From Actinomycetota bacterium (lineage in GTDB: Bacteria; Actinomycetota; Acidimicrobiia; Spongiisociales; ZC4RG35), in NCBI GenBank assembly GCA_019347585.1, contig JAHWLC010000003.1, forward strand, positions 1-16,431: a DNA stretch of 16,431 nt, written 5' to 3'. Both the position numbers and the translations under genes were made by a program. This document shows, piece by piece, positions 1 through 16,431 of the stretch. The notes beneath the pieces are model-generated. The model did no database searches and had not been told where the DNA came from. It saw nothing but the letters and a program-made list of their open reading frames with translations. Position 1 is the first letter of the stretch. Each line of letters opens with the position of its first letter.

Positions 1-446
1 CCCACCCTCTCCAATGCCTCGGCTGCGGTCATGTCCGCACCCAACGGCGCCTCCGGCCAGACCTCGGCCAGGGGACGGAGGGCGAACTCACGCTCACCGA
101 CCCGTGGGTGGGGCACCTCGAGTGCGTCGGTGCTCACCGGCCCGACATCAGAGGCCAAGATGTCTAGGTCCAGGGTTCGGGGGCCCCACCGCTCTTCCCT
201 CGCCCGCCCGGCCTGGTCCTCGATGCGGGCCAGGGCCTCGAGCAACGCGACAGGGCCGAGCTCGCTCTCCAGGATCGCCACCGCGTTGAGATAGGGGCCT
301 TGGGAGGGGCCTCCCAGCGGCTCGGTCCCGTAGACCGATGAGAGGGCCTGCACCGATCCGAGCGATCTCAGACCCCTGACCCCGGCTCGCAAGTTGTCGA
401 GGCGATCCCCGAGGTTCGAGCCCAGACCGATGGCGTAACGGGTCAA
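1..446 (-). CDS. folK: 2-amino-4-hydroxy-6-hydroxymethyldihydropteridine pyrophosphokinase (HPPK), 3' end outside window
   Basis: HPPK transfers pyrophosphate from ATP to 6-hydroxymethyl-7,8-dihydropterin, the step before dihydropteroate synthase in cytoplasmic folate synthesis. The reading frame starts at a TTG at 446 and gives MTRYAIGLGSNLGDRLDNL, the typical HPPK N-terminus with its GLGSNLGDR loop. Further on come the family signature RWGPRTLDLDIL (acidic pair that binds Mg-ATP) and VPHPRVGEREFAL, also conserved. About 148 codons are visible of a usual 155-175, so only the extreme C-terminus is missing at the window edge. The TTG overlaps the folB stop as TTGA, so translation is probably coupled to folB. 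No better start lies nearby, because the family begins two or three residues before the YAIGLGSN strand. The identification is firm; the TTG start is inferred. Confidence 0.93.
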   Translation of the reverse strand, partial: MTRYAIGLGSNLGDRLDNLRAGVRGLRSLGSVQALSSVYGTEPLGGPSQGPYLNAVAILESELGPVALLEALARIEDQAGRAREERWGPRTLDLDILASDVGPVSTDALEVPHPRVGEREFALRPLAEVWPEAPLGADMTAAEALERV

Positions 447-802
447 CTACTTCTGTCGACGGTCACCGAGACGTCGTCGAGGACCGCCCCCAGCTCCGCC
501 TCCGGCTTGTGGATGGTCACCACCACCCGCTCCGCCCGGGGATCGGCGAGCACCGTCTCCGCCACGCGATGGGCGACGCTCTCGATGAGCTTGTGCGACT
601 CCCCGCCCACCGTCTCGTTCACCTGCTCGGCCAGCCGTCGGTAGTCGATGGTGTCGTCGAGGTCGTCAGACCTGCCCGCCGGGGCGAGGTCGGCGAACAC
701 CACGAGATCGACCCGGAACACCTGCGGCCTGACCTGTTCTTCCTCGAGGACCCCGTGCCTGGCGTAGACTTCGATCCCCCGCAGCTCGATGCGGCCGCTC
801 AC
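443..802 (-). CDS. folB: Dihydroneopterin aldolase
   Basis: FolB converts 7,8-dihydroneopterin to 6-hydroxymethyl-7,8-dihydropterin plus glycolaldehyde and feeds FolK. The 119-residue product is the normal family length. It shows RIELRGIEVYARHGVLEEE at residues 4-22 (the strand and loop with the pterin-site glutamate), DYRRLAEQV near 53, HKLIESVAHRVAETVL from 70, and VTIHKPEAEL near 95. In that last motif K99 matches the catalytic lysine of the family. The GTG start at 802 is chosen because the aldolase fold begins at once after it and because GTGA overlaps the stop of the upstream gene. A longer in-frame extension to 1252 is unrelated sequence antisense-shifted against the upstream gene. The 3' end overlaps folK by four bases. 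Confidence 0.94.
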   Translation of the reverse strand: MSGRIELRGIEVYARHGVLEEEQVRPQVFRVDLVVFADLAPAGRSDDLDDTIDYRRLAEQVNETVGGESHKLIESVAHRVAETVLADPRAERVVVTIHKPEAELGAVLDDVSVTVDRSS

Positions 803-1293
803 GAAGCCGAGGACGCCGGGATCAGCGACCGGCCCTCGGGCCCGAGCGCCCTGCCCAGGATCTGCTGGATCACTGCAAGGGCAAGGATCGGGTTCTCCAC
901 CAGGCCAGAGGTGACCAGGTAGCTGCCCAGAAGGCCGCCGACGGTGTCGTCGATCGACTCGCGATGAACCAGCACGCGCCCGTGACTGCGACTCATCGCC
1001 TGCGACAGGGTGTTGACGAAGCGCATCACGTCGGCCGGCTCGACTGGTGAGCTCACGGGGCAGGAGTAGGTGGCGATCCCCGCTTGCCGATAGGCGGCCA
1101 GATTCTGGTTGGCGGGGAGCATGGAGACGATGGTGTTGATCCCGGCCTCCTCGACCAGCCAGGTGATCTCCTCCTCCCGTCTCACCTTGCGGTGCTGGAA
1201 GCCCGAGCCCCCGACCCGGTCCGAAACGGCCAGGCGATCGGCGATGACCCACTTGAAAGCTCGAGGCTTCAGTCCAGCGGCCATGCGTCCCAT
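799..1293 (-). CDS. Dual-specificity-phosphatase-like protein lacking catalytic Cys and Arg (putative pseudo-phosphatase)
   Basis: This 164-residue protein has the layout of a cysteine (dual-specificity) phosphatase. A segment EEAGINTIVSMLP (48-60) resembles the GI-x-x-V-x-x-L strand. A CPVSSPVEPADVMRFVNTL stretch sits where DSPs carry the general-acid loop. GRVLVH (105-110) leads into the P-loop and is followed by a helix GGLLGSYLVTSGLVENPILAL. At the P-loop the family reads HCxxGxxR, but here it reads HRESIDDT: R111 replaces the nucleophilic cysteine and T117 replaces the phosphate-binding arginine. Ordinary phosphatase chemistry is therefore not expected. It sits between folP (its ATG touches the folP stop) and folB (4-bp overlap), so it is co-translated with folate enzymes. 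A binding or regulatory role is an inference. It is not assigned to the dihydroneopterin triphosphate dephosphorylation step. The start could also be the Met at codon 4. Confidence 0.75.
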   Translation of the reverse strand: MGRMAAGLKPRAFKWVIADRLAVSDRVGGSGFQHRKVRREEEITWLVEEAGINTIVSMLPANQNLAAYRQAGIATYSCPVSSPVEPADVMRFVNTLSQAMSRSHGRVLVHRESIDDTVGGLLGSYLVTSGLVENPILALAVIQQILGRALGPEGRSLIPASSAS

Positions 1294-2133
1294 CTATCGG
1301 GTCACCATAGCTGTGGCAAGGGCCAAGGCCTGCCGGGAGCGGAGGACGTCATGGACGCGAAATACCCGGGCCCCATTGATAAAACCGACGGCAGTGGTGA
1401 CGGCGGTGGCCATATCGAGATCTGCCGTGGAGCGAGCTTCGACCACGGTGCCCAGGAACCTCTTGCGGGAAGTGCCGAGCACCACCGGAGCGTGCCGAGA
1501 CAGCCGCCCCAGCCCTCCCAGCAGCTCCAGATTGTGGTCCTTGGTCTTCCCGAACCCGATTCCCGGATCGATCGCGATCCGGGAGCGAGCCACGCCGGCG
1601 GCGACGACCGCCTCGATGCGCTCCTCGAGGAATCTCTCCACTTCCTCTTTGACGTCCTCGTAGGAGGGATCGAGATGCATGTGGCGCGGCTCTCCTCGCA
1701 TGTGCATCAAGATCACCCCACACCCGGCGTCTGCGATGAGATCGGTCATGCCCTCGGACCGGCAGGCCATCACGTCGTTGACCAACTCTGCTCCCCGTGC
1801 CAGGGCTTGCTCGGCGACCTCGGGCTTGGAGGTGTCGATGCTCACCACGACTCCCCTGCCGGCCAGCCCCGCGACCACAGGAAGGACCCTCGCCATCTCC
1901 TCCTCGGAGGGAACAGGCTCCGCACCGGGGCGTGTCGACTCGCCTCCGATGTCGACTATGTCGGCCCCATCGGCTACGAGGGAGAGCCCATGGTCGATGG
2001 CTGCCCCGGGCTCGAGGAACTTGCCGCCGTCCGAGAAGGAATCGGGTGTGACGTTGACGATACCCATCAGCACCCCGCCGGCGAGCCCGACCTCAGCCGA
2101 CCGCAGACGCCAAATGGGCTCCGATGTGGCCAA
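1294..2133 (-). CDS. folP: Dihydropteroate synthase
   Basis: FolP condenses 6-hydroxymethyl-7,8-dihydropterin pyrophosphate with p-aminobenzoate to give 7,8-dihydropteroate, and is the sulfonamide target. All hallmark blocks of the TIM barrel are present in order: MGIVNVTPDSFSDGG (23-37, mobile loop 1), DIGGESTRPG (61-70), SIDTSKPEVAEQAL near 98, LVNDV near 117, LMHMRG near 142, IDPGIGFGKT (188-197) and GTSRKRFLG (220-228, with K224 the pterin-pocket lysine). The 279-residue length is normal. The ATG at 2133 starts 3 bases after the folE stop, and the gene's TAG directly abuts the ATG of the phosphatase-like gene. No truncation or resistance-type insertion is visible in the mobile loops. Confidence 0.97.
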   Translation of the reverse strand: MATSEPIWRLRSAEVGLAGGVLMGIVNVTPDSFSDGGKFLEPGAAIDHGLSLVADGADIVDIGGESTRPGAEPVPSEEEMARVLPVVAGLAGRGVVVSIDTSKPEVAEQALARGAELVNDVMACRSEGMTDLIADAGCGVILMHMRGEPRHMHLDPSYEDVKEEVERFLEERIEAVVAAGVARSRIAIDPGIGFGKTKDHNLELLGGLGRLSRHAPVVLGTSRKRFLGTVVEARSTADLDMATAVTTAVGFINGARVFRVHDVLRSRQALALATAMVTR

Positions 2134-2136
2134 CCG

Positions 2137-2712
2137 TCAGCTTCGCGTCCCCAGCAGGAGGGACATGGCCTCGGCCCTCGTCGCCGGGCTGCTCTCCATC
2201 AGCCCACGCACCGCCGAGGTCACCGTTTTGGCCCCCGGCTTCTTCACGCCCCTCATCGACATGCAGAGATGTTCCGCCTCGATCACCACCAGGACCCCCA
2301 GCGGGTCGAGACGCTCGTCGAGGCAGTCGGCCACCTGTGCGGTGAGCCGCTCTTGCATCTGCGGCCTCCGGGCGAATCCCTCCACGAGACGGGCCAGCTT
2401 GGACAATCCGGTGACCCGGTCCCGGGGCATGTACCCGACATGGGCCTGCCCGTGGAAGGGGACGAAGTGGTGCTCGCACATCGAATAGAACGGGATCTCC
2501 CTCACCATCACGATCTCCTGATAGTGCTCTTTGCCGAAGAAGGCGTCGATCTCCTCGCCGGGATCGCGGTGGATCCCCTCGAAGACCTCCTCGTAGAAGC
2601 TGGCCATCCGCTCCGGGGTCCCGATGAGACCTTCCCGCAGTGGGTCCTCCCCCAGCGCCTCGATGATCTCCCGAACCGCCTTCTCGATTCTTCCCCGGTC
2701 GATTTGTGCCAT
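2137..2712 (-). CDS. folE: GTP cyclohydrolase I
   Basis: FolE opens GTP to 7,8-dihydroneopterin triphosphate, the first committed step of folate synthesis. From the ATG at 2712 the protein is 191 residues, the typical size of the type IA enzyme. It carries [16 protein letters not shown] (32-47), [20 protein letters not shown] (75-94), [20 protein letters not shown] (102-121) and [12 protein letters not shown] (144-155). The zinc ligands are C79, H82 and C150, all intact, so this is the zinc-dependent form. The gene leads the folate operon and its coding DNA runs away from the plus-strand RHH module. Longer in-frame starts exist at 2766 (ATG) and 2781 (TTG), but they add sequence not typical of the family. 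The ribosome-binding context of the ATG is poor (see the leader hairpin). Confidence 0.96.
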
Positions 2713-2716
2713 CACT

Positions 2717-2738
2717 GGAGGAATCTTCGCAGTCCTCC
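2717..2738 (-). promoter_or_regulatory. Short inverted repeat holding a Shine-Dalgarno-like sequence in the folE leader
   Basis: On the minus strand GGAGGA is followed after 10 bases by TCCTCC, a perfect 6-bp stem lying 4 bases upstream of the folE ATG. The GGAGGA is a strong Shine-Dalgarno sequence, but it is 20 bases from the ATG and 17 from the adjacent in-frame GTG. Only an in-frame ATT at 2724-2722 has standard spacing, 8 bases. Either the stem masks the site, or folE uses an unusual start, or the pairing is coincidence. What is seen is the repeat; any regulatory role is inference. Confidence 0.3.
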
Positions 2739-2785
2739 GACAAATTCCCGAAAAAGCTGGTGCCATCCGTTTTCCTGGCAATGGG

Positions 2786-2814
2786 TTGACGCGATGTCCC
2801 CATGACGTTATAGT
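2786..2814 (+). promoter_or_regulatory. Sigma-70-type promoter of the RHH-DUF4097 module
   Basis: A -35 hexamer TTGACG (2786-2791) and a -10 hexamer TATAGT (2809-2814) are separated by exactly 17 bases. That is close to the housekeeping consensus and conspicuous in this GC-rich DNA. Transcription would start near 2821, about 45 bases before the first start codon at 2866. The -10 box and start site lie inside the 11-bp box array, which fits repression by a protein bound there. Confidence 0.75.
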
Positions 2815-2846
2815 GACATCATCATGACATCATACAGATGTCGAAG
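2792..2846 (+). promoter_or_regulatory. Tandem 11-bp operator-like array (five GAYRTC-type boxes)
   Basis: Hexamers starting at 2793 (GATGTC), 2804 (GACGTT), 2815 (GACATC), 2826 (GACATC) and 2837 (GATGTC) lie exactly 11 bases apart. Four of the five fit the palindromic consensus GAYRTC; the fifth has T in the last position. The register means every box faces the same side of the helix. Ribbon-helix-helix (RHH) repressors of the Arc/MetJ type bind cooperatively to such arrays of short half-sites. The array covers the region from the -35 spacer to past the predicted start site, and an RHH gene follows, so autoregulation is the simplest reading. Confidence 0.65.
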
Positions 2847-2865
2847 AGACGAGAGGAAAGCCCTC

Positions 2866-2946
2866 ATGCTGGTCTTCATGACTCCGAAACAGATAGAAGC
2901 GCTGCTCGAGCAGCGGATTCGCAACCACGTGAGGAGAGCTCGCTGA
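2866..2946 (+). CDS. 26-residue micro-ORF preceding the RHH regulator
   Basis: An ATG at 2866 opens 26 codons ending in TGA at 2944-2946, one base before the ATG of the next gene. The leader GAGAGGAAAG supplies an AGGA-type ribosome site 8 bases from this ATG. The peptide begins MLVFMTPKQIEALLEQ and ends in an arginine-rich segment RNHVRRAR, so it could form one short basic amphipathic helix. No family is recognised. It could be a real small protein, a leader peptide coupling translation to the RHH gene, or chance. The ribosome site and the tight spacing support translation; the function is unknown. Confidence 0.5.
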   Translation: MLVFMTPKQIEALLEQRIRNHVRRAR

Positions 2947-2947
2947 G

Positions 2948-3403
2948 ATGCAGCTCTCCCACGCCATTTCCGGTCTGGAGAACGCGGTCGAGGCCCAGCT
3001 CCGGGTGGCCGGCTCGGAGACCGCCGACATCGGCTCCCAGCTCCTCAACGCCCTCCGCCCCGCCATCAGACAGACGTTGATGGAGGTGGTGACCATGGCC
3101 GCCACCGAAGTCTCCAGCCAGCTCCGCGGTTCCCGCGTCGAGGTCCGCCTGGTAGACGGAGACCCCGAGCTGATAGTGGCAGAGGACGCTTCCGCGGTGC
3201 CCCCTCCCCCGCCTCCCCCGGGGACGGATGACGACGAGGCTCGCATCACGCTTCGTCTCCCCGGCTATCTCAAGGAGCTCATCGCCGAAGCCGCCGCCGG
3301 CTCCGGTGATTCGCTGAACGCCTTCGTCGTCGACGCTCTGCGCTCCAAGACCCACAGCTCCGGCAAGTCCGGCTCCCGATACCGCACCACCATCGAGCTG
3401 TGA
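2948..3403 (+). CDS. Ribbon-helix-helix (Arc/HicB-antitoxin-like) transcriptional regulator
   Basis: The 151-residue protein has three parts. An N-terminal helical and strand region (1-78, including QLRGSRVEVRLVDGDPELIV) is followed by a linker with seven consecutive prolines (85-91) and acidic residues. The third part, ARITLRLPGYLKELIAEAAA (98-117) then SLNAFVVDALRSK (122-134), is the beta-strand plus two helices of an RHH DNA-binding domain. RHH proteins dimerise and insert the strand into the major groove. The start ATG has GAGGAG-type ribosome binding 9 bases upstream, inside the end of the micro-ORF. Its stop overlaps the DUF4097 start as GTGA. From general knowledge, similar RHH proteins annotated as HicB-family antitoxins precede DUF4097 genes in actinobacteria. 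No toxin gene is visible here, so a regulator is preferred over an antitoxin. It probably binds the 11-bp array in front of the module. Confidence 0.8.
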   Translation: MQLSHAISGLENAVEAQLRVAGSETADIGSQLLNALRPAIRQTLMEVVTMAATEVSSQLRGSRVEVRLVDGDPELIVAEDASAVPPPPPPPGTDDDEARITLRLPGYLKELIAEAAAGSGDSLNAFVVDALRSKTHSSGKSGSRYRTTIEL

Positions 3404-4164
3404 TCAGCGAAGAGTTCACCGTCACCGGCACCCCCGAGGTCGAGGTGCGCATCGCTTCGGGAAGGGTCGAGATCATCGAGGGAGACCCGGGTCTGGTCGC
3501 GGTGGAGGTCGAGACCAAGGACCCAGATTTCATCGTGGAGCAGCGGGGCAACCTCGTATTCGTTTCCTCCGACCGGAACTCGGGTTGGTTGTCCCGCGGC
3601 TCCGCCTTCGTCACCGTCAGGATGCCATCAGGCGGCGAGGCCAGGGTGAGCACCGCCTCTGCCCGCATCGACTGCGAGCCCCACATGGGTCGCATCGAGG
3701 TGAAGACCGCCTCGGGCGACGTCGAAGTGGAGAGCGCAGAGATCGTCACCATCAAGACGGCAAGTGGCGACGTGGGGCTCGGCGACGCGACCAAGGCCGT
3801 GCGGGTGGCCACCGCCTCGGGTGACATCTTCGTGAGAGGCGGCTCCGAGGGCAGCCTGGGGTGCAACACCGCATCCGGGGAGGTCCACATCGAACGGTGC
3901 AGCGGGGCCCTCGACGTCAACACCGTCTCCGGAAACGTCTACGTCCGGCGATTCACCGGAAGCCAGGCCAACTTCAAGTCGATGTCGGGATCGATCGACC
4001 TGGGTATCCCGGAGGGGACCCGAATCGACCTCGACGCCAGCATCCTCTCCGGGAAGCTGCGCACCCCGCCCACGAAACAGCCCTCGGTGCCGGTGGAACG
4101 CCATATGACGGTCAAGGCGAAGCTGGTATCGGGTGATCTCGCCATAGATCGTCTCGAGGCGTGA
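3400..4164 (+). CDS. DUF4097-type beta-strand repeat protein
   Basis: This 254-residue protein consists mainly of short beta repeats built around a T-A-S-G-D-V core: TASARI (85), TASGDV (103), TASGDV (120), TASGDI (138), TASGEV (157), TVSGNV (175), SMSGSI (194), ILSGKL (215) and LVSGDL (242). The spacing is mostly 17-21 residues, as in a right-handed beta-solenoid of the DUF4097 family (YvlB/LiaX-like proteins). There is no signal peptide or membrane segment, so it is predicted cytoplasmic. The GTG start overlaps the RHH stop (GTGA), so the two are translationally coupled. Some DUF4097 proteins elsewhere act in cell-envelope stress responses, but nothing here shows which process this one serves. 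The ligand and partner are unknown. Confidence 0.85.
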   Translation: MISEEFTVTGTPEVEVRIASGRVEIIEGDPGLVAVEVETKDPDFIVEQRGNLVFVSSDRNSGWLSRGSAFVTVRMPSGGEARVSTASARIDCEPHMGRIEVKTASGDVEVESAEIVTIKTASGDVGLGDATKAVRVATASGDIFVRGGSEGSLGCNTASGEVHIERCSGALDVNTVSGNVYVRRFTGSQANFKSMSGSIDLGIPEGTRIDLDASILSGKLRTPPTKQPSVPVERHMTVKAKLVSGDLAIDRLEA

Positions 4165-4181
4165 CGGTTCGACAAACCTCC

Positions 4182-4213
4182 GGTAGTTAGGCCCGTATCC
4201 GGGCCTAACTACC
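4182..4213. repeat. Hairpin A, 14-bp stem
   Basis: Arms GGTAGTTAGGCCCG (4182-4195) and CGGGCCTAACTACC (4200-4213) pair perfectly around a TATC loop. Its central 24 bases (4186-4209) share their architecture with hairpin B: GTTAG-x-CCC-y-4-nt loop-y'-GGG-x'-CTAAC. Confidence 0.9.
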
Positions 4214-4233
4214 TCGAGAAACGACATGCGGAT

Positions 4234-4255
4234 CGCCTCGAGAATTCTCGAGGCG
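4234..4255. repeat. Perfect 22-base palindrome C
   Basis: CGCCTCGAGAA is followed directly by its exact reverse complement TTCTCGAGGCG. The CCTCGAGAA half also occurs at 4212-4220, and TCTCGAGGCG occurs at the end of the DUF4097 gene (4152-4161), so this palindrome has alternative pairing partners. Confidence 0.85.
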
Positions 4256-4279
4256 GTTAGTCCCATATATGGGACTAAC
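4256..4279. repeat. Hairpin B, perfect 24-base palindrome related to hairpin A
   Basis: GTTAGTCCCATA is followed by its exact reverse complement. Compared with the core of hairpin A, a G-C pair has become T-A and another G-C pair has become A-T, with every pairing kept. This is the pattern expected of two related copies under selection for structure. Confidence 0.88.
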
Positions 4280-4297
4280 TACCGGAGGTTGTTCTGA

Positions 4298-5398
4298 TCA
4301 GGCCTCGGCGGGCCGGCCCTTGGTCCGGGGAAGCTTGCGGCCCAACCGGAGCGACTCGGTGACCTCCTCGGTCTCCTCCTCCTTCTCCTCCTCGGTGGCC
4401 GCCGCGATGTCCTCCCGCTCCTGGGGAAGGACCGGGTTCTCCGGGTACTTGATCCGGAGCGACCCGTCCCTGGCGTGCTCCCACTTGGGGACGTCGGCGA
4501 AGATCACCGCCACCTGCTCCCGGTCGACTGTCTCGTTCTCGAGCAGGTCGGCCACCATCCGCTCCATGGCGTCCCGGTGCCGGTCGAGGATGGTGCGAGC
4601 CTCCTCGTGGGCGGCGTTGATCATCTTCCTCACCTCGGCGTCTATGAAGGCGGCCACCTCGTCGGAATAGTCCTGCTGGCGGGAGTAGTCGCGGCCGAGA
4701 AAGACCTCACCGGTGGGACGTCCGTATTGCATCGGCCCCAGCTCATCGCTCATCCCGTACTCCATCACCATGCGGCGGGCGATGGCGGTCGCCTTCTCGA
4801 TGTCGTTGGCCGCCCCGGTGCTGGGGTCGGCGAATATGAGCTCTTCGGCGGTGCGGCCCCCGAGGAGCATGGCGAGCTGGTCGACGAGCTCGCTCCGTTT
4901 GGAGATGTACTTGTCGTGGGTGGGCAGCGCGAGGGTGTGCCCCAGGGACCTCCCCCGCGCCACGATGGTGACCTTGTGCACGGGGTCAGCGTTGGGCAGC
5001 GCATAGCCGACCAGAGCGTGTCCCGTCTCGTGGTAGGCGATGACCTTGCGCTCCTCCTCGCTCATCACCCGGCTGCGACGCTCGGGCCCGGCGATCACGC
5101 GATCGATGGCCTCCTCCAGCTCCAGCATGGTGATCTCCTTCTTGCGCCTGCGGGCGGCGAGAAGGGCTGCCTCGTTGATCAGATTGGCCAGATCGGCGCC
5201 GGTGAAGCCGGGGGTGCGGCGAGCGAGCACCTCGAGGTTGATCTCACCGGCGAGCGGCTTGCCCTTGGAATGCACCTCGAGGATGGCCTCCCGGCCCTCG
5301 ATATCGGGAGCGTCGATCGTGATCTGGCGGTCAAAGCGGCCCGGGCGGATGAGCGCCGGGTCGAGCATGCCCGCGCGGTTGGTTGCGGCAATCACCAC
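4298..5398 (-). CDS. ftsH: ATP-dependent zinc metalloprotease FtsH, C-terminal fragment (split by frameshift)
   Basis: This frame carries the second half of Fts[21 protein letters not shown] is the AAA second region of homology with the arginine finger. The lid contains [18 protein letters not shown]. The zinc protease site is HETGH (123-127 of this fragment), and an aspartate in [15 protein letters not shown] matches the third zinc ligand. The tail is acidic ([11 protein letters not shown]) and typical of the family. The frame continues upstream of the nominal GTG at 5398 as [20 protein letters not shown], expected FtsH sequence, up to a run of seven G. The N-terminal frame is left at that run. 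Joined with the N-terminal part, the protein would be about 666 residues, a normal FtsH. On its own this fragment lacks the Walker motifs and should not function. Confidence 0.93.
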
Positions 5399-6297
5399 GA
5401 CTCCGGCCCGATCCCCAAAGCCATCGAGTTCGAGCAGGATCTGGTTGAGGGTCTGATCGGTCTCACGGCCCCCCCGCCGAGACCAGCGCCGCGGTGGCGG
5501 CCGACGGCATCGATCTCGTCGATGAAGACGATGGCAGGGGCGCTCTGCTTGGCCTGATCGAAGAGGTCTCTGACCCGGGCGGCGCCGACACCGACGAACA
5601 TCTCGACGAAGTCGGACCCCGAGATCGACATGAAGGGGACTCCCGCTTCTCCGGCCACCGCCCGCGCCAGCAGGGTCTTTCCGGTGCCGGGAGGGCCGAA
5701 GAGGAGGACGCCTTTGGGGATCTTGGCTCCCATCTGCCGGTAGCGGTCGGGGCTGGCCAGGAAGTCCTTGATCTCCTCCAGCTCCTCCTTGGCCTCCTCG
5801 AGACCGGCCACGTCGTCGAAAGTGACCTTGGGCTGCTCCTTGCCCACCAGCTTGGCCCGGGACTTGCCGAACTGCATCACCCGGTTCCCGCCCCCCTGCA
5901 TCTGCATGAAGATGAAGACCATGAACCCGAGCAGGAAGAGCCAGGGGAGGAAGCTGATCAGGAGCTCCCAGAAGCCTGGTGGCTCGGGGTCCGCCGACCA
6001 GGGGATCCCGTTGCGATCCAGGGTGGCGGTCAGGGTGGGCTCGAACCCCTCGACGTAGTTGGCGACGTGGTCGAAGGCTCCCTCCTCGGCGGTGGTCCCC
6101 GTGAGGCGGCCCCGTGCCTGGAGGGTGTTCTTGCCGAGGACGACCGCCTCGTACTCACCCTCCTCGATGTTCTCCATGAACTGGGAGATGGGGACTTCCT
6201 CGGGCCCGGCCACCTGGTCGAACCACCAGGAGAACATGATCGCCACCAGGATGATCGACATCCCGTAGACGATGAGGGTGCGCAGGGTGCGGTTCAA
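5392..6297 (-). CDS. ftsH: ATP-dependent zinc metalloprotease FtsH, N-terminal fragment (split by frameshift)
   Basis: FtsH is a hexameric inner-membrane AAA protease that extracts and degrades membrane and cytoplasmic proteins. This part shows a first membrane helix (about 8-24), an extracytoplasmic domain with [19 protein letters not shown], and a second membrane helix (about 109-131). Then come Walker A GPPGTGKT (201-208), [17 protein letters not shown], and Walker B IVFIDEID (256-263). Up to GAGLGGG (270-276) it is normal. After the seven-G run (plus-strand C run 5469-5475) the frame reads unrelated sequence and stops at 5392. One more G would restore canonical length and sequence. The TTG start at 6297 fits the usual N-terminus, with GAGG 5 bases upstream. 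hpt lies 68 bases upstream. A sequencing or assembly indel is likely; a real mutation or slippage is possible. Confidence 0.93.
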
Positions 6298-6365
6298 AGA
6301 GACCTCGGGTTTCTCGAGTGACCCAGAGCCAATGCTACGCCGGGCCGGTGGCTAGGCGACGCTGC

Positions 6366-6887
6366 TCACGGCTGACCGCCCATCACCCCCACGTAGGGCA
6401 GGTTGCGGTACTTCCCGGCATAATCCAGGCCATAACCCACCACGAACTCGGGGCCGATGTTGAAGGCCACGTATCTGACATCTATCGGCACCCGCTGGAT
6501 GCCCTCTTTAATCAGCAGCGCGGCGATCTCCAGTGAGGCGGGCTTGCGCACCCGGAGACTCTTCACCAGGTAGTTCAGCGTCAGCCCGGAGTCGATGATG
6601 TCCTCGACGATGAGGACGTGACGACCCTCGATCTCCTCGTCCAGGTCCTTGAGGATGCGGACCACACCTGACGTCTGGGTCGAAGCTCCGTATGAGGAGA
6701 CCGCCATGAAGTCGAACTCGCAGGCGAGGTCGATGTGGCGGGCCAGATCGGCCATGACCATGAAGGCGCCGCGGAGCACTCCGACGAAGAGCAGCTCCTC
6801 CCCGGCGTAGTCCTCCGAGATCTGCTTCCCCATCTCGGCCAGCTTCGCGTCGATCTGGGAGGCGGTGATCAGCGGCTCGATGTCCAT
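6366..6887 (-). CDS. hpt: Hypoxanthine phosphoribosyltransferase
   Basis: Hpt salvages hypoxanthine (and often guanine) to IMP/GMP using PRPP in the cytoplasm. The 173-residue protein has the type I phosphoribosyltransferase fold. The FVGVLRGAFMVMADLARHI segment (34-52) holds the pyrophosphate loop. SSYGASTQTSGVVRI (64-78) forms the flexible loop. VLIVEDIIDSGLTLNYL (91-107) is the PRPP-binding motif with its paired acidic residues. VAFNIGPEFVVGYGLDYAGKYRNLPYVGV near the C-terminus is the conserved purine-site region. The ATG at 6887 has an excellent GGAGG site 8 bases upstream. The gene overlaps the end of tilS by 19 bases, the common actinobacterial tilS-hpt arrangement. A longer in-frame extension to 7079 is only out-of-frame tilS sequence. 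Confidence 0.96.
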   Translation of the reverse strand: MDIEPLITASQIDAKLAEMGKQISEDYAGEELLFVGVLRGAFMVMADLARHIDLACEFDFMAVSSYGASTQTSGVVRILKDLDEEIEGRHVLIVEDIIDSGLTLNYLVKSLRVRKPASLEIAALLIKEGIQRVPIDVRYVAFNIGPEFVVGYGLDYAGKYRNLPYVGVMGGQP

Positions 6888-8113
6888 CCCGGTTTCCTCC
6901 GTGCGGACACCACAAGGTAGCCACTGGCGCCCGGCTCGTACCAGGCGACCGGCAGTCTCTCCCCCCCCGGGACCCACGCCGGCTCGCCGTCGGCCAGGAC
7001 CATTCCCTCGGGAGTGGCGGTGAGGCGGGTCCCTGCGGGGAAGAGCGCCAACCATCGGCTCAGCGGCGCCACCCTGCAAACTCCGTTTCTGGCGGCGACC
7101 TCGAAGACCAGCGAGCCCACCAGGACGCGACCCGAGTCAGAGAGGTCGACCTCATCGGCTCCATCCGCCCTCGAATCGTCGGCTCCGGCGGAGATCACCA
7201 GCAGCGGGCCCTCCCGGTTCGCCGAGGCTCCGGCGGCGATCTCCTGGCGCCCGCTGTCGCCATGAGCCACCGACCATGCCCGCTCCACGGCCCCGACCTC
7301 CACCCGATCGCTCCCCGCGACGTGGGCGATCATCTTCGCCAGGACGCGGTCTGCCAGTGGCCGGGGGGAGGTTACGAGCACTCCGACGGGAATCGAGGCG
7401 AGATCGTCCTCCAAGCGGGGCCGTAGCTCGCCGGCGAGACGATCCAACAGCTCGTCATCGTCTCTCACCTGCCGGGAGAGACGGCCGATCGCCTCCAGGA
7501 GCGAGGGATTGATCTGAGAGAGGACCGGGATCATCTGACGCCGGACCAGATTTCGGGTGATGTTGGGGTCGAGGTTCATCGGGTCGTCGACGAAGCTCAG
7601 CCCGCCAAGAGCGGCGATCTCCCTGGTCTCCGCCCTGCCCAGCGCCAGTATCGGCCGGTAGACGTTGGGAGGGCGGAAGGAGGGGATGCCGGTCAGCCCG
7701 GTGGGCCCGGTCCCTCTGATCAAGTTGATGAGCACGGTCTCGGCGCTGTCGTCGGCGGTGTGACCGGTGAGCAGCCGGTCGTCTGGGCCAGTGCCCTCGC
7801 CGAAGGCCCGGTAGCGGGCCTCCCGTGCCCGAGCCTCGGGTGACGGGCCCTCGTCGACGACGGTCTCCACCACCTCGAGGGCGATGCCGATCTCATCGGC
7901 GATCGCCTTCGCCGCGGCCCGCATCGTGGCGGAGTAGGCCAGCCCGTGATCGACGTGAAGGGCACGCGGCTTGCGGCCCCCACTCAGGACGAGGTAGGCG
8001 AGAGCGGCGGAGTCGGCGCCTCCGGACAGGGCAACGACGAGCTCGCCATCAGGGAGCGTCATGCGCTCCGAGGCGGAGGAGACCAGCTCCTTCAGGCGAC
8101 GCGGGCCAGCCAT
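6869..8113 (-). CDS. tilS: tRNA(Ile)-lysidine synthetase
   Basis: TilS attaches lysine to C34 of the CAU-anticodon tRNA-Ile with ATP, changing its charging from methionine to isoleucine and its decoding to AUA. It is normally essential. The 414-residue protein has the N-type ATP pyrophosphatase P-loop ALSGGADSAALAYL (28-41), then HVDHGL (53-58). TGHTADDSAETVLINLIRGT (116-135) and FVDDPMNLDPNITRNLVRRQ are both diagnostic of TilS. Substrate-binding and C-terminal regions follow, ending in an AWYEPGASGYLVVSARRK segment with no recognised family. The ATG at 8113 overlaps the end of the metalloprotease gene by 22 bases, with GAGGA about 11 bases upstream; a later Met (codon 18) is less likely. Confidence 0.95.
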   Translation of the reverse strand: MAGPRRLKELVSSASERMTLPDGELVVALSGGADSAALAYLVLSGGRKPRALHVDHGLAYSATMRAAAKAIADEIGIALEVVETVVDEGPSPEARAREARYRAFGEGTGPDDRLLTGHTADDSAETVLINLIRGTGPTGLTGIPSFRPPNVYRPILALGRAETREIAALGGLSFVDDPMNLDPNITRNLVRRQMIPVLSQINPSLLEAIGRLSRQVRDDDELLDRLAGELRPRLEDDLASIPVGVLVTSPRPLADRVLAKMIAHVAGSDRVEVGAVERAWSVAHGDSGRQEIAAGASANREGPLLVISAGADDSRADGADEVDLSDSGRVLVGSLVFEVAARNGVCRVAPLSRWLALFPAGTRLTATPEGMVLADGEPAWVPGGERLPVAWYEPGASGYLVVSARRKPGWTSSR

Positions 8114-9120
8114 CGCGCCGGATCCTCGATCTCGGCGAGGGTGGGGAGACTCGAGGCCCCCCGGAAGGCCAGCCCGACGGCATCCCAGCCCGCCTCACGC
8201 TCGACTCCGAGGACGAATTGCTCTCCCATGCGGTACTGCCTCAGCTTCATCTCCAGCCCGGTGAGACGGAAGAACGCCGCGGTTCGCTTGTCCTGCCTGC
8301 GCTCTCTGAGGACGCGGCTCATCCTGGCCTGGGACTTGATGTGCTCGGCCCCGAGGCGGTCCATGACGACATGGCCGTGACCTTCGAGGAGGGACATCAG
8401 CGCCTGGACCTTGTCGACGATCTCGCTCTGCTCCGGAGTGGCGAATAGGCCGAAAAGCCCTCGATGGTCGATGAGTGGCTTCCCCTGGGCCCTCCGGCTC
8501 CCCAGCTCCTCGAGCACCCGCCCCAGCTTCCCCGGCTCGGGGCGGGCGGACTCGACCAGCTCGGTGACTAGGCCCATGAAGTAGTCGCGCATCCATGGCA
8601 CGCCCTGGAACTGGGCGCGATGGGTGAGCTCGTGGAGGGCCACCCAGAACCGGAAGTCCGGGGGCCGAAACTGGCGAGCTCTCTCGATCTGGAGGATGTT
8701 GGGCCCGACGTAGGCGACGGTGTCGGCCGATCCGCCGGTGGGGAGCACCAGTTCGTACTGGCCGAGCACCCTCTTGGCGAGGACGCTCAGGATGGCAGCG
8801 GTCTCCGCCTGCACCAGGTGGCCGGCGAGGGCGATGGCGCCCCGGCTCGCCCCCCGCTCCTCCATTCGCTCCTCGAGCTGGCGCACCGCAGGCTCGGTGA
8901 GATGAGCGAATGTGGAGACGTTGCGGTCGATCCACTGGGCGCGGTCGATGACCGCCGTCTCGGGTCGGCCGGTCAGAGGGAGGTGGGTCGCCTCGGCGAC
9001 GAGAGCCGAGGCCCGCTCGGTCGCCTGCTCCATCTCGGAGGTGAGGGCGGCCCGGTGATAGGTCTCGGCGAGGGGGTAACTGCCGGCGAATCGTCCGAAG
9101 AGGCGGCCCGAGACGGTCAC
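8092..9120 (-). CDS. Zinc-dependent metalloprotease of the DUF2342 / F420-biosynthesis-associated family
   Basis: The 342-residue protein contains the zincin motif HELTH (163-167) in the context FWVALHELTHRAQFQGVPWM, a hallmark of the actinobacterial DUF2342 family. Genome annotation often labels members coenzyme F420 biosynthesis-associated, but their substrate is not established to my knowledge. The N-terminus SGRLFGRFAGSYPL resembles the family's G-x-x-L-x-G pattern. No signal peptide or membrane helix is seen, so it is probably cytoplasmic. The GTG start at 9120 overlaps the upstream stop (GTGA); an in-frame extension to 9237 runs through the upstream gene in another frame and is rejected. 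Placement directly upstream of tilS-hpt is typical of actinobacteria. Nothing else in the window relates to F420. Confidence 0.88.
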   Translation of the reverse strand: MTVSGRLFGRFAGSYPLAETYHRAALTSEMEQATERASALVAEATHLPLTGRPETAVIDRAQWIDRNVSTFAHLTEPAVRQLEERMEERGASRGAIALAGHLVQAETAAILSVLAKRVLGQYELVLPTGGSADTVAYVGPNILQIERARQFRPPDFRFWVALHELTHRAQFQGVPWMRDYFMGLVTELVESARPEPGKLGRVLEELGSRRAQGKPLIDHRGLFGLFATPEQSEIVDKVQALMSLLEGHGHVVMDRLGAEHIKSQARMSRVLRERRQDKRTAAFFRLTGLEMKLRQYRMGEQFVLGVEREAGWDAVGLAFRGASSLPTLAEIEDPARWLARVA

Positions 9121-9452
9121 TCTTCGATGACTCGGTACCGATTCCTGACCACGTCGCTGAAGTAGCGGATCGAGATCACCAGGATGATCAACACCGCGAG
9201 GACCAGGGCCGTCGGGATCAGGTAGCGATACGTCCATTGCGGGTTGGCCGCCACTTCCTCCTCGTCGAGCACCTCTACTGCCGGTCTGAGCCCGGTCGTG
9301 GTGGCCGGCGCCTCGGCGACGGTCGTCTCCGTCGCGGCAATGGTGGTAGTCGTCTCCTCACCCTCTTCCTGGGCGAATGCCACAGCCGGGATCAGCATGG
9401 CCAGGGACAGCAGGAACAGCAGGGCCGGGGTGCGGTGACCGCGGTTGGTCAT
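9117..9452 (-). CDS. Small membrane-anchored protein with Thr-rich extracytoplasmic linker, function unknown
   Basis: I do not recognise a family. The 111-residue protein starts with a basic stretch and a hydrophobic segment (9-26) ending in AFA-QE, which looks like a signal peptide cleavage site. An acidic and threonine/alanine-rich region follows (29-56, including EETTTT and APATTT). A second hydrophobic helix (about 78-95, YLIPTALVLAVLIILVISI) and a short basic cytoplasmic tail RYFSDVVRNRYRVIEE complete it. The predicted topology is one exported, flexible, low-complexity segment held by a C-terminal membrane anchor. The gene lies 38 bases after the anti-sigma gene and overlaps the metalloprotease start by four bases (GTGA), so it belongs to the same operon. 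The ribosome site is weak (AGGTAGG, 12 bases from the ATG). Confidence 0.8.
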   Translation of the reverse strand: MTNRGHRTPALLFLLSLAMLIPAVAFAQEEGEETTTTIAATETTVAEAPATTTGLRPAVEVLDEEEVAANPQWTYRYLIPTALVLAVLIILVISIRYFSDVVRNRYRVIEE

Positions 9453-9490
9453 GCGGCCAGCCTACCTGTGGGTGTTTACCAGTCGTAGCG

Positions 9491-9736
9491 CTACAGGATG
9501 TGCCGCTCGACGCGAATCGCCTCCCGCACACGCACCACGAATTCCCGCGGGACTTCTTCGTCGAGCCGCTGCCTGACCACCATCTTGAGCCGCCGCTCGA
9601 AGTCGAACGGTCCCAGGCACCCGCCGCACATCTCGAGATGGGCACGAATCCGCTCGGCCGACACCTGGTCGAGCTCGGAGTCGAGATATAGATACAGATT
9701 GGCGAGTGCTTCGTCGCAGTCGCAGGGTTGGCTCAT
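9491..9736 (-). CDS. rsrA: Zinc-binding anti-sigma factor, RsrA/RshA-like
   Basis: RsrA-type proteins hold their SigR/SigH sigma factor inactive under reducing conditions. They release it when zinc-ligand cysteines form a disulfide. The 81-residue protein has the ZAS signature H-x3-C-x2-C as HLEMCGGC (H33, C37, C40) plus N-terminal cysteines C5 and C7. It therefore has the ligands for a redox-responsive zinc site. Its length is typical of this short class. The ATG at 9736 overlaps the stop of the sigma gene (ATGA), the usual coupled sigma/anti-sigma arrangement. A longer frame to 9787 would lie inside the sigma gene and is rejected. The symbol follows the Streptomyces naming; orthology is inferred from motif and context. 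Confidence 0.88.
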
Positions 9737-10311
9737 GGTCTCTCGGCGTCCTCGGGCACCAGCCCGCGTTGTCGTGCAAACTCCCACAACCGCTTCTGCA
9801 TGGCTTTTCTTCCGCGGTGCAGCCGCGACATCACGGTCCCGATGGGGATGTCCAGGATCTCGGCGATCTCCTTGTAGGCGAATCCTTCGAGATCGGCGAG
9901 GACCACGGCGATGCGGAAGTTCTCGGGGAGACTCTCCACCGCCTCCTTGACGTCTGACTCCACGAGCCCATCGAGGACTTTGTCCTCGACGGTCCGGGCC
10001 ATGTCCGCAGAGTCCTCCGAGCCGATACGCCGATAGAGGTAGAGGTCCTCGACCTCGCCGAGATCGACCTCGGAGGGTCGTCTCGACTGCTTCCGGTATT
10101 TGTTGATGTAGGTGTTGGTGAGGATGCGATAGAGCCAGGCCTTGAGATTGGTGCCTGCCTCGAAAGTGTCGTAAGCCCGATACGCCTTGAGCAGGGTCTC
10201 CTGCACCAGGTCCTCGGCGTCGGCGGGGTTACGGGACATGCGCAGGGCCGCCGAATAGAGCTGCCGGGTGTACTGCATCGCATCCTGCTCGAAGTCCGCC
10301 TGATCGGCCAT
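9733..10311 (-). CDS. sigR: ECF-type RNA polymerase sigma factor, SigR/SigH-like
   Basis: This 192-residue ECF sigma factor has region 2 at about 12-78: [37 protein letters not shown] and KYRKQSRRP, the last typical of the SigR/SigH group. Region 4 lies at about 125-178, with the helix-turn-helix [20 protein letters not shown]. This group directs thiol-oxidative and heat stress genes (thioredoxin, mycothiol recycling, proteases) in actinobacteria and recognises GGAAT...GTT promoters. None is visible in front of this gene, so autoregulation through its own promoter is not supported here. The start lies 48 bases downstream of the tRNA-Thr 3' end. No Shine-Dalgarno precedes the ATG, suggesting leaderless translation or expression from the tRNA transcript. 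Confidence 0.92.
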
Positions 10312-10359
10312 GGGTTCGGCACGCTAGCCGGGGGTGCCGGGGCGACGAGACGGCTGCCG

Positions 10360-10431
10360 AGCCGGAGAGGGGGATCGAACCCCTGGCCTACGGTTTACGA
10401 AACCGTTGCTCTACCACTGAGCTACTCCGGC
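10360..10431 (-). tRNA. tRNA-Thr (anticodon CGU)
   Basis: The 72-base minus-strand cloverleaf has acceptor arms GCCGGAG / CTCCGGC and the D arm GCTCAGTGGTAGAGC. The anticodon stem ACGGT / ACCGT holds loop TTCGTAA, giving anticodon CGT (reads ACG). The T arm is AGGGG / CCCCT with loop TTCGATC, and the discriminator is U. CCA is not encoded. A tRNA-Thr next to holB is a familiar actinobacterial arrangement. Confidence 0.97.
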
Positions 10432-10443
10432 GGGGAGACCCCG

Positions 10444-10449
10444 ATTTTA
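10444..10449 (-). promoter_or_regulatory. Possible -10 element of the tRNA-Thr gene
   Basis: TAAAAT on the minus strand ends 12 bases before the tRNA 5' end, a sensible distance for a short tRNA leader. It stands out in a GC-rich gap. The matching -35 position (about 10467-10472) reads CTGGCC, a poor match. The 88-base gap between holB and the tRNA holds nothing else recognisable. Confidence 0.35.
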
Positions 10450-10519
10450 GGAAGAACGGGCCACTCGGCCAGATCCAGCGGCCCCCTTCCGCCGCCACGG
10501 GACTCCTCGGCCAACGGCT

Positions 10520-11545
10520 CTAAGCCCCGGATCCCAGAGAGGCGAAGAGATTGGCCAGAACCAGCTCCCTGCGCAGGTTGGCCTGGATGTCCACCACGGC
10601 GTCGAGGACCGCCTCCGCGGACCGCACCGCCTGACGGGGAGGCACTGCGGTGAGGCTGGTGAGTGGGATGTCGCCGTTGCGAACCGGCCCGCCGAGCTGG
10701 AGCGCGGCCGCGTCGCTGTACCAGGAGGCGAGGATCTCGAGTCCTCCGACCAACAGCGCCATCTCGGCCCGTCTCCTCGTCCGCTGTGCCTTGTCCTTGG
10801 GGAGGTCGTCGCCAACCGATCTCCCCACCAGAGGGCCCAGCTCGGTGAGCACGACGGAGGCGAGCCTCTGCCCGTCTCCCGGCCGAGGGGTCACCCTGTC
10901 CGGGATCGACAGCCACAAGCTCCTGAACCCGGCCACCTCGGGCTGGGTCATCAATGAGAGGGCGAGGCCGGGACGGCCCCCGGACACCACAGCGACGTCG
11001 CCGGCCTCCTCCGGGCGAAGGCCCCGCTCCTCGAGGGCGGCGATGATCTCCGCCCCGATGACCCGACCCATGTGCACGGTGCGGCAGCGAGAGGCCACGG
11101 TGGCCGGGAAGTCGTCCTCCGACTCGGCAACGAGGAGGAAAACCGCGGAGGCGGAAGGCTCTTCGAGCGTCTTGAGGAGTGCGTTCGCCGCCGGCTCGGT
11201 CATCGTGCCCGCCTCGGGGAACAGGAACACCGTCCGGGCAGCCTCCACCGGGAGCATGGAGGCTCGGGTGACCACCTCGCGCGCCTGGTCGACGCCGATG
11301 CTGGTCGCCCCCTCGGGCTCGATGATTCGGAGGTCGGGATGGGTCGAGGCCAGGGCGAGTCGACGGGACCGTTCGTCGTCGTCGCCGCCGAGGAGCCCGG
11401 CGGCGAACCTGAGGGCAACGGTCGATTTCCCCACCGACTCCGGGCCCACGAACAGGTATGCCTGAGCTGGCGCGAGGATCTCGCTTTCGAGCAGGCCGGT
11501 GACATTGGCATGACCGATGACGTCGGAGAACAGCGAGCCGCTCAA
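10520..11545 (-). CDS. holB: DNA polymerase III delta-prime subunit
   Basis: HolB is the clamp-loader subunit that helps load the beta sliding clamp at the replication fork. The 341-residue protein has an intact Walker A GPESVGKST (34-42). HPDLRIIEPEG and the VDQAREVV segment follow. FLFPEAGTMTEPAANALLKT, the EEPSASAVFLLVAES strand and the SRC motif (ASRCRTVHM) are all characteristic of the delta-prime/gamma family. The remaining C-terminal collar domain is divergent, as usual. The TTG start at 11545 overlaps the tmk stop (TTGA). DnaX is unlikely, because the protein is too short and lacks the zinc-module cysteines. The tmk-holB pair is a standard bacterial arrangement. Confidence 0.92.
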   Translation of the reverse strand: MSGSLFSDVIGHANVTGLLESEILAPAQAYLFVGPESVGKSTVALRFAAGLLGGDDDERSRRLALASTHPDLRIIEPEGATSIGVDQAREVVTRASMLPVEAARTVFLFPEAGTMTEPAANALLKTLEEPSASAVFLLVAESEDDFPATVASRCRTVHMGRVIGAEIIAALEERGLRPEEAGDVAVVSGGRPGLALSLMTQPEVAGFRSLWLSIPDRVTPRPGDGQRLASVVLTELGPLVGRSVGDDLPKDKAQRTRRRAEMALLVGGLEILASWYSDAAALQLGGPVRNGDIPLTSLTAVPPRQAVRSAEAVLDAVVDIQANLRRELVLANLFASLGSGA

Positions 11546-12129
11546 GTCGCCACCTCGAGGATCCGCTCGATCAGGTCCTCGACCCGCTGGGAGCCGTCGA
11601 GCACCACCACCTTCTCGTCGGCGGCGGCAAGAGCCAGATATGCCTTGCGCACCTCCTCCTGGAAGGGGATTCCTTCGGCCCCGATGCGATCGGCACGATG
11701 CTGTCTGGGCATGGCGGTCTCCGGAGCGACGTCGAGCACGAAGACCTGATCGGGGAGAACATCGCCGAGACCGATCTCGTTGATCTGGCGTACCGCCTCC
11801 TCACCGAGCCCGCGGGCGCGTCCCTGGTAGGCGATCGAGGAGTAGTAGGTGCGGTCGGAGATCACCCATTTCCCCTCGGAGAGCGCGGGCGCCACCACTC
11901 GCCGGGCGAGCTCGGCGCGTTGAGCGGCAAAGAGAAAGGCCTCTGCCCAGTCGTCAAGGATCTCGGAGTCGAGGAGAAGCTCGCGCACCGCCTCGCCCAG
12001 CGCTGTCCCGCCTGGCTCACGCACCACGACGACCTCGTCGCCCCGGGCGCGGAGACGGCCGGCAAGGGCGTCGGCCACGGTGGTCTTCCCCGAGCCGTCA
12101 CCACCCTCGAGGGCGAGGTATCTGCTCAC
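11542..12129 (-). CDS. tmk: Thymidylate kinase
   Basis: Tmk phosphorylates dTMP to dTDP in the cytoplasm for DNA synthesis. From the GTG at 12129 the protein is 195 residues. The family core begins at once: SRYLALEGGDGSGKTT with P-loop GGDGSGKTT (9-17), VVREPGGTALGE (about 36-47, dTMP binding), SDRTYYSSIAYQG (conserved DR motif near 93), and a lid segment around PRQHRADRI. An ATG at 12177 in frame would add 16 residues and cannot be excluded. It is disfavoured because family members start about 7-8 residues before the P-loop. No clear ribosome site precedes the GTG, so the transcript may be nearly leaderless. The gene is divergent from topA. Confidence 0.93.
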   Translation of the reverse strand: MSRYLALEGGDGSGKTTVADALAGRLRARGDEVVVVREPGGTALGEAVRELLLDSEILDDWAEAFLFAAQRAELARRVVAPALSEGKWVISDRTYYSSIAYQGRARGLGEEAVRQINEIGLGDVLPDQVFVLDVAPETAMPRQHRADRIGAEGIPFQEEVRKAYLALAAADEKVVVLDGSQRVEDLIERILEVAT

Positions 12130-12170
12130 ACCCGCGACGGTAACCGGGCGGGGTGACAGCGGCGCCAAGA

Positions 12171-12200
12171 TTGACATAGCACCCCGTCATGGGGTCAACT
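12171..12200. promoter_or_regulatory. Divergent tmk/topA control region with overlapping -35-like elements and a dyad
   Basis: The plus strand has a perfect TTGACA (12171-12176) pointing to topA, but the -10 position 17-18 bases on reads only TCAACT or similar. The minus strand has TTGACC (12198-12193) pointing to tmk. Between them lies a dyad ACCCC-GTCAT-GGGGT (12181-12195). The facing TTGAC elements suggest overlapping divergent promoters. The weak -10 boxes keep confidence low. Confidence 0.4.
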
Positions 12201-12208
12201 GCCGGGCA

Positions 12209-16074: not shown

Positions 16075-16166
16075 CGGGGGATTCTCCTGTCGAGAGGACG
16101 CCAAGGGTCCACAGCTTCACTTCTGAGGAGCCAAATTACAAGGATCGGATTCAGAGTCGTTGCCCA

Positions 16167-16431
16167 CTAGGGGCGGCGCTCCGCTACCCAAGCCCTGATC
16201 GCCCCCACCGGCCGGGTGTTGAGGACCTGGTCGGCGGTGACCCATCCCCGCTGGGCGTAGAGCACACCGAAGCCCATCCGCACCAGATCGCCGGTGTGAT
16301 GGGAGTCGGTGTCGATGACGATCGTGACCCCCAGGGCCATGGCCATGTGGGCGACCTCGGCGGTGGCGTCCAACCGGTCCAGGGCCCCGTTGACCTCGAG
16401 GGCGACCCCGGTCGCCGCCAGCGCCTCGAGG
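16167..16431 (-). CDS. C-terminal PHP domain of a PolX-like DNA polymerase/3'-5' exonuclease, 5' part outside window
   Basis: About 87 codons are visible and the frame enters from the right edge. ALEVNGALDRLD, then VTIVIDTDSHHTGDL and MGFGVLYAQRGWVTADQVLNT, match the end of the PHP (polymerase and histidinol phosphatase) metal-dependent phosphoesterase domain at the C-terminus of bacterial PolX. The D-S-H triplet supplies typical metal ligands. PolX is a gap-filling repair polymerase with exonuclease or AP-endonuclease activity. Only this tail can be seen, so a stand-alone PHP hydrolase remains possible. The 92 bases to the PhoH start hold no clear terminator; a TGTAAT near 16135-16140 on the minus strand could be a -10 box for the PhoH gene. 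Confidence 0.82.
   Translation of the reverse strand, partial: LEALAATGVALEVNGALDRLDATAEVAHMAMALGVTIVIDTDSHHTGDLVRMGFGVLYAQRGWVTADQVLNTRPVGAIRAWVAERRP

Follow-up and report, generated by a model that had tools for sequence, protein, structure and literature searches.

A dispersed REPIN-like palindromic doublet in Acidimicrobiia genomes and its association with genes for AbiEi_4-DUF559 nuclease-like proteins

Repetitive extragenic palindromic (REP) sequences and their doublets forming hairpins (REPINs) are short dispersed palindromes with a bias toward convergent and tandem gaps between genes. Their doublets are inverted and of fixed length, and the gene of the partner enzyme, the REP-associated tyrosine transposase (RAYT), lies between two inverted repeats and stays at one inherited locus as the repeats spread (passages of PMC2817692, PMC3116915 and PMC3733652). 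RAYTs were first tied to REPs by this bracketing and by the co-occurrence of gene and repeats, as recounted in parts of PMC2817692. The CGTC-tagged REPs apparently have no dedicated transposase, and Actinobacteria are not among the phyla given for them in passages of PMC3733652; for REPs without a RAYT, no enzyme has been named so far. Here we describe a 116-nt palindromic doublet lying between the convergent genes for FtsH and a DUF4097 protein in a 16,431-nt stretch of an Acidimicrobiia genome (contig JAHWLC010000003.1, positions 1 to 16,431; the window), and a computational analysis that connects its kin to a different type of protein.

All of the REP/REPIN–RAYT features listed above recur here, the fixed-length inverted doublets in genome G008 and the gene between inverted repeats encoding an AbiEi_4-DUF559 protein (G, C and L numbers are our designations for genomes, contigs and loci; G000 is the window's own genome, 1.4 Mb in 265 contigs and 75.6% complete). 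The predicted folds alternate among doublets between a clover (C199) and a long hairpin, the two alternative forms described for REPINs in part of PMC3116915. The systems differ in that we found no Y1 HUH transposase, the partner being a nuclease-like protein; in that the GTAG foot is not conserved across genera (most G000 units carry GTAG, G008 units GTAA and G024 units mostly GTTG); and in that we found tens rather than hundreds of copies. CGTC-tagged REPs, compared by description and not by sequence, are likewise dispersed palindromes with no adjacent RAYT. Enterobacterial repetitive intergenic consensus (ERIC) sequences are intergenic imperfect palindromes of about 100–130 bp, and the element resembles them and the bacterial interspersed mosaic element BIME-1 in these respects, by description alone. 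On balance, we consider the element to be a non-autonomous REPIN-like miniature repeat that is recognised, and probably spread, by an AbiEi_4-DUF559 nuclease and not by a RAYT.

The element and its two neighbors comprise the following features.

4175..4290, no strand assigned: complete doublet of two inverted 46–47-nt units, the inserted element (116 nt; 46-nt inverted arms, 85% complementary)
4175..4221, plus strand: unit A, outer end AACCTCCGG, inner end CTCGAGAAA (covariance model R1, 76 bits; the unit is among R1's building sequences)
4244..4290, minus strand: unit B (R1, 70.6 bits; also among its building sequences)
4182..4213, no strand assigned: hairpin A, 14-bp stem 4182–4195 / 4200–4213 with a 4-nt loop
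4256..4279, no strand assigned: hairpin B, 12-nt perfect inverted arms 4256–4267 / 4268–4279
4234..4255, no strand assigned: central (third) hairpin CGCCTCGAGAATTCTCGAGGCG, from sequence and folds
3400..4164, plus strand: DUF4097 ('toastrack') gene (Pfam PF13349, E 3.8e-22), its stop 10 nt before the element
4298..5398, minus strand: C-terminal part of ftsH (AAA lid, peptidase M41; Pfam PF01434, E 1.9e-71), its stop 7 nt after the element

The two hairpins that a sequence-only reading had noted are both present and prove to be halves of this single doublet; as that reading also observed, they differ by two changes, each with both partners altered. The region 4165–4300 folds at -77.5 kcal/mol compared with a mean of -40.0 for shuffled sequences (z -11.0), and none of 200 shuffles folded as well. 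An Rfam scan of the window returned no match above the gathering score at the element and a tRNA (10360–10431, minus strand, 74.1 bits) as its only hit.

One possibility raised by the same reading, a palindromic repeat with further copies across the genome, was borne out. BLAST with positions 4165–4300 recovered 13 places in G000, leaving out five with E above 1: five near-full-length doublets (C199, C209, C205, C243 and C236) and eight single-unit or shortened copies. The genome-wide pattern search that had been suggested (GTTAGNCCCN6GGGNCTAAC) found seven places, and none for the pattern read backwards. With R1, which was built from 23 half-units, kin were detected in 9 of the family's 34 genomes, counting G000 itself, and these represent 6 of its 18 genera. 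Since only 150 candidates per genome were scored, the numbers of copies are minimum values. Ninety-two elements were extracted from 88 of 90 loci. Within a wider genome collection, which may omit records near G000, 32 stretches carried the exact pattern, and the element was present in five of them, all from Acidimicrobiia (four from isolate SZUA-217 and one from CSMAG_3164). The other 27, among which is a separate Bacteroidales repeat, and five viral stretches have flanks unlike the element and were rejected as relatives, and pattern matches in G004 and G006 were dropped for want of AACC ends.

The units are arranged in a fixed way in G008. There AACCTCAGGTNNT occurs 59 times and gives 23 pairs, all inverted and facing inward; 10 of the pairs span exactly 108 bp and 20 span at most 164 bp, and no other arrangement was seen within 2 kb. 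Single units are common in the other genomes. Four of the five G000 doublets have the loop ATATAT in one unit and GTATCC or GTATAC in the other. We rejected a conserved pairing between the outer arms of one doublet, as these match no better than arms across doublets (0.802 in G008 versus 0.837 shuffled). Two G008 contigs (C13, position 39; C14, position 24) start less than 40 nt from a repeat unit. The repeats may thus interrupt assembly, in which case draft genomes would hold more of them than are counted.

At the window's locus the element is an insertion that entered whole between ftsH and the DUF4097 gene. This convergent junction occurs in 12 of 30 ftsH loci, the window's own among them, and holds the element solely in the window. 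The stop-to-stop gap ranges from -4 to 74 nt in the 11 other junctions and measures 133 nt here, or 17 nt without the element; five of the 11 genomes with an empty junction (G008, G019, G023, G024 and G025) have copies elsewhere. Relatives in which uncompensated changes broke the stems at this junction would have spoken against the sequence-only reading, and what the relatives have there is no element at all. Elsewhere, junctions are common to several species, with 47 of the 92 elements having an orthologous flank in another genome, often with differing sequence. One convergent junction (L139, L016, L156 and L175) holds elements in four species of two genera, and their differing sequences hint at concerted change or repeated replacement.

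The connection to a protein comes from the long inverted pairs. G008 has three pairs 0.8–1.3 kb apart, one of which encloses a gene for an AbiEi_4 + DUF559 protein, and a 1039-bp inverted pair encloses such a gene in G024. We searched the family with this protein and read the flanks of the genes found. Units of the window's family lie on both sides of the gene in G024, and as weak matches on both sides in G015 (C19); the G008 gene is preceded by a full unit and followed by a 13-nt outer arm, and in G000 (C64), G023 and G032 a unit stands on the assembled side of a gene in which the contig ends. Other homologues are bracketed by different palindromes: TACCTAATGCA in G000 (C185), AAACCTAAGG in G009 and G010, and GAACCCNGGGTTC in several genomes. 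At least two palindrome types other than the window's stand beside AbiEi_4-DUF559 genes or fragments in G000, the TACCTAATGCA type (L240, C185) and a GAACCCAGGGTTC type (L265, about 919–975, C85). The bracketing units are most like the dispersed units of their own genome in G008, G000 and G015, and like those of the own or a sister genome in G024.

The bracketing exceeds what control genes show. At a word cut of 10 nt, set after seeing the data, the flanks share an exact inverted word in 27 of 40 usable family loci (47 chosen from homologue matches, of which 7 truncated, short or otherwise unusable were dropped) versus 3 of 104 control genes (Fisher 3e-16). In a sample of the phylum the corresponding counts are 12 of 30 loci and 0 of 39 controls (Fisher 1e-5); all 30 loci returned were used, including two from the own family, which contribute one of the 12 positives, and L300 with its short upstream flank. 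When flanks of different loci were paired, inverted words appeared in 95 of 1560 family and 16 of 702 phylum combinations, compared with 27 of 40 and, after omission of those three phylum loci, 11 of 27 for a gene's own flanks.

Gene and repeats also occur together. A close homologue is present in 8 of the 9 genomes bearing R1 copies versus 1 of the 25 others (p 4e-6; the table was counted by hand and the 44% identity cut for closeness chosen afterwards). Copies of GAACCCNGGGTTC were found in 11 of 16 genomes (G028, 67; G009, 49; G010, 38; G012, 14; G014, 13; G022, 13; G019, 8; G021, 7; G027, 4; G013, 3; G002, 2), with a backward control of 0 except for 1 in G002; among the four homologue-free genomes in this search, G020, G031 and G033 have none and G002 has the two just given. 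In G049, a single-contig genome of another family, a 48-nt palindrome occurs at 12 places, four of them bracketing the gene on both sides and eight elsewhere (control 0).

The partner protein has an AbiEi-type N-terminal domain, and its predicted fold joins this domain to a nuclease domain of the Vsr / I-Bth0305I type with conserved residues. The AbiEi fusion sets it apart from Vsr and from the homing endonuclease I-Bth0305I, a member of the EDxHD family. Some sources name these proteins antitoxins or very-short-patch-repair endonucleases, and a Caulobacter DUF559 protein is treated as a Vsr-like mismatch enzyme in part of PMC12907096. AbiE type IV toxin–antitoxin systems differ in lacking the C-terminal Vsr-like domain, and the three neighbors scanned here (a Bmp lipoprotein and VanY at L155, an aldo/keto reductase at L031) are not AbiEii toxins. 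VanY adjoins the gene in 6 genomes of 5 genera, so the gene has probably been passed down at a fixed locus. A plasmid search with a single distant homologue (L270) gave no match.

We propose that recognition of the palindrome, whether as a duplex, a cruciform or a single-strand hairpin, would fall to the N-terminal AbiEi domain, that the C-terminal domain would cut at or beside it, and that repair after the cut may copy or move the doublet and so spread it. As with RAYTs, the gene would stay at one inherited locus while the units spread. The evidence is of the same kind as that which first linked RAYTs to REPs, for a different enzyme.

Several observations weigh against this proposal. Computation shows the dispersal, the insertion, the doublets, the bracketing, the co-occurrence and the predicted domain folds; binding, cutting, mobilisation and an effect on RNA are inferred, and no binding, cutting or movement has been observed. 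No target duplication has been demonstrated, filled and empty junctions having been compared by gap length and not at single-base level. AbiEi antitoxins bind inverted repeats at their own promoters (part of PMC7319586), which alone could explain a palindrome upstream of the gene. The two other long G008 pairs (L215, 793 bp; L216, 1274 bp) each surround one gene that has no Pfam match. In G000, the one homologue seen at full length (C185) is bracketed by a palindrome unlike the window's, and the homologue adjoining the window's type of unit (C64) is truncated at a contig end. No 10-nt word is shared in 13 of the 40 loci from the family and 18 of the 30 from the phylum, and direct words of at least 10 nt join the flanks in 20 of 40 and 8 of 27; palindromic units must give such direct words, so the brackets are not simple terminal inverted repeats. 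The gene-flanking unit in G023 shows no preference for its own genome (0.79 to own units versus 0.81 to G026 and 0.80 to G000). Finally, G011 has a close homologue and no R1 copies detected, G025 (75% complete) has copies and no close homologue, and G001 and G016 have homologues but no GAACCC (GAACCCNGGGTTC) copies.

The placement of the elements bears on what else they might be. Using a home-made codon model for gene calls, we classified 88 element-bearing gaps as 40 convergent, 41 tandem and 7 divergent, compared with 2, 26 and 10 among 38 element-free gaps of at least 60 nt from the same loci (Fisher 3e-6 for the convergent excess and 0.009 for the divergent depletion; 2e-5 to 2e-4 and about 0.035 under stricter gene cut-offs). 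In tandem gaps the element lies nearer the 3′ end in 36 of 41 cases, at a median of 11 nt. Three G008 copies sit 10–30 nt past tRNA 3′ ends, and in G023 a single copy is found 5′ of a tRNA. The hairpins probably act at the site on transcript 3′ ends from both sides. Such a location and the very stable folds would suit bidirectional terminators or protectors of mRNA 3′ ends that are useful to the host and spread by ordinary recombination, their closeness to the AbiEi_4-DUF559 gene being incidental. We consider this unlikely: no intrinsic terminator (a GC-rich hairpin followed by a T-run) was found at 3900–4600, which leaves the earlier suggestion of a duplicated terminator weak despite a location fit for ending or protecting transcripts; the junctions of 11 relatives are empty; the divergent gaps include that of copy C209 of G000, with SelA and a metallo-beta-lactamase-fold gene called as starting 37 and 47 nt away; and the excess of bracketing over controls would go unexplained.

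The promoter binding known for AbiEi antitoxins also invites a reading in which the palindromes are operators and the AbiEi_4-DUF559 protein a genome-wide regulator, the dispersed copies marking its regulon. We hold this to be quite improbable, as a copy also stands past the gene's stop, copies favor 3′ ends and are depleted in divergent gaps, and the nuclease-like domain with its conserved residues would be left without a task. Least probable of the three is a classical family of miniature inverted-repeat transposable elements derived from an ordinary insertion sequence of the DDE or HUH type, the full copy of which was lost or is unassembled: inverted-end doublets, insertion at an otherwise empty junction and the 75% completeness of G000 would agree with it, but Y1_Tnp (PF01797), the RAYT domain, was found in none of the nine copy-bearing genomes, several of them incomplete (the same search, which did not extend to DDE families, was positive in 5 of 14 control genomes), and the three long G008 inverted pairs enclose no recognised transposase. 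An integron attC site, whose consensus is RYYYAAC ... GTTRRRY, was rejected because the stems in G008 and most of those in G024 lack the boxes.

We find it evenly balanced whether AbiEi_4-DUF559 proteins at large are the dedicated enzymes of a separate REP-type repeat class, with a Vsr/homing-type nuclease in place of an HUH or DDE transposase. At a cut of E ≤ 1e-20 they were detected in 124 of the 396 genomes sampled from the phylum. Among the open-licence papers listed, none has a title or abstract that connects dispersed repeats with AbiEi or DUF559 proteins. Were the link to hold, a large family named after an antitoxin-like domain would become a mobile-DNA enzyme, gene flanks would predict the repeats of each enzyme, and mobility of the REPIN kind would have at least two origins that differ in their chemistry. 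It would then also be unsafe to label these genes as toxin–antitoxin or defence genes from an N-terminal match alone, and PADLOC models do match them.

The sequence-only reading took the paired changes between the two hairpins as a sign that structure is maintained, and this holds in part. Among 104 distinct 47-nt units from eight genomes, 83% of positions pair, versus 75.5% in pooled and 81.5% in within-genome shuffles (0 of 2000 reached it in each case). Taken genome by genome, the signal is clear in G023 and G015 and less so in G000 (reached by 0, 5 and 29 of 1000 shuffles). It is weak in G024, G025 and G026, and G008, the best-populated genome, shows none (74.5% versus 75.6% shuffled; reached by 915 of 1000). 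Among 22 distinct half-units, both-sided changes affect 3 of 14 pairs (shuffle mean 2.0, reached by 116 of 500) and 10 cells (shuffle mean 4.0, reached by 0 of 500); 9% of cells are unpaired, and 4 of the 22 half-units have lost pair 17/30, the one with the earlier G-C to T-A swap. Both arms of a quasi-palindrome can also be altered in a single event of templated repair. These comparisons indicate that structure is kept between genera and that inferring it from covariation is unsafe inside one genome.

Three further observations were made in passing. An unrelated dispersed palindrome (gcgctaGTTAGNCCCGC..GCGGGNCTAACtgagcgag) occurs in several Bacteroidales genomes (L051, L052, L054, L057, L060–L062, L064, L066, L069, L071, L072 and L077). 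The ftsH gene of the window is broken across two frames (5392–6297 and 4298–5398, minus strand), perhaps by an assembly indel. Upstream of the DUF4097 gene, positions 2948–3403 of the plus strand encode a 151-aa protein with a C-terminal TacA1/HicB-like stretch (E 3e-5 to 5e-5).
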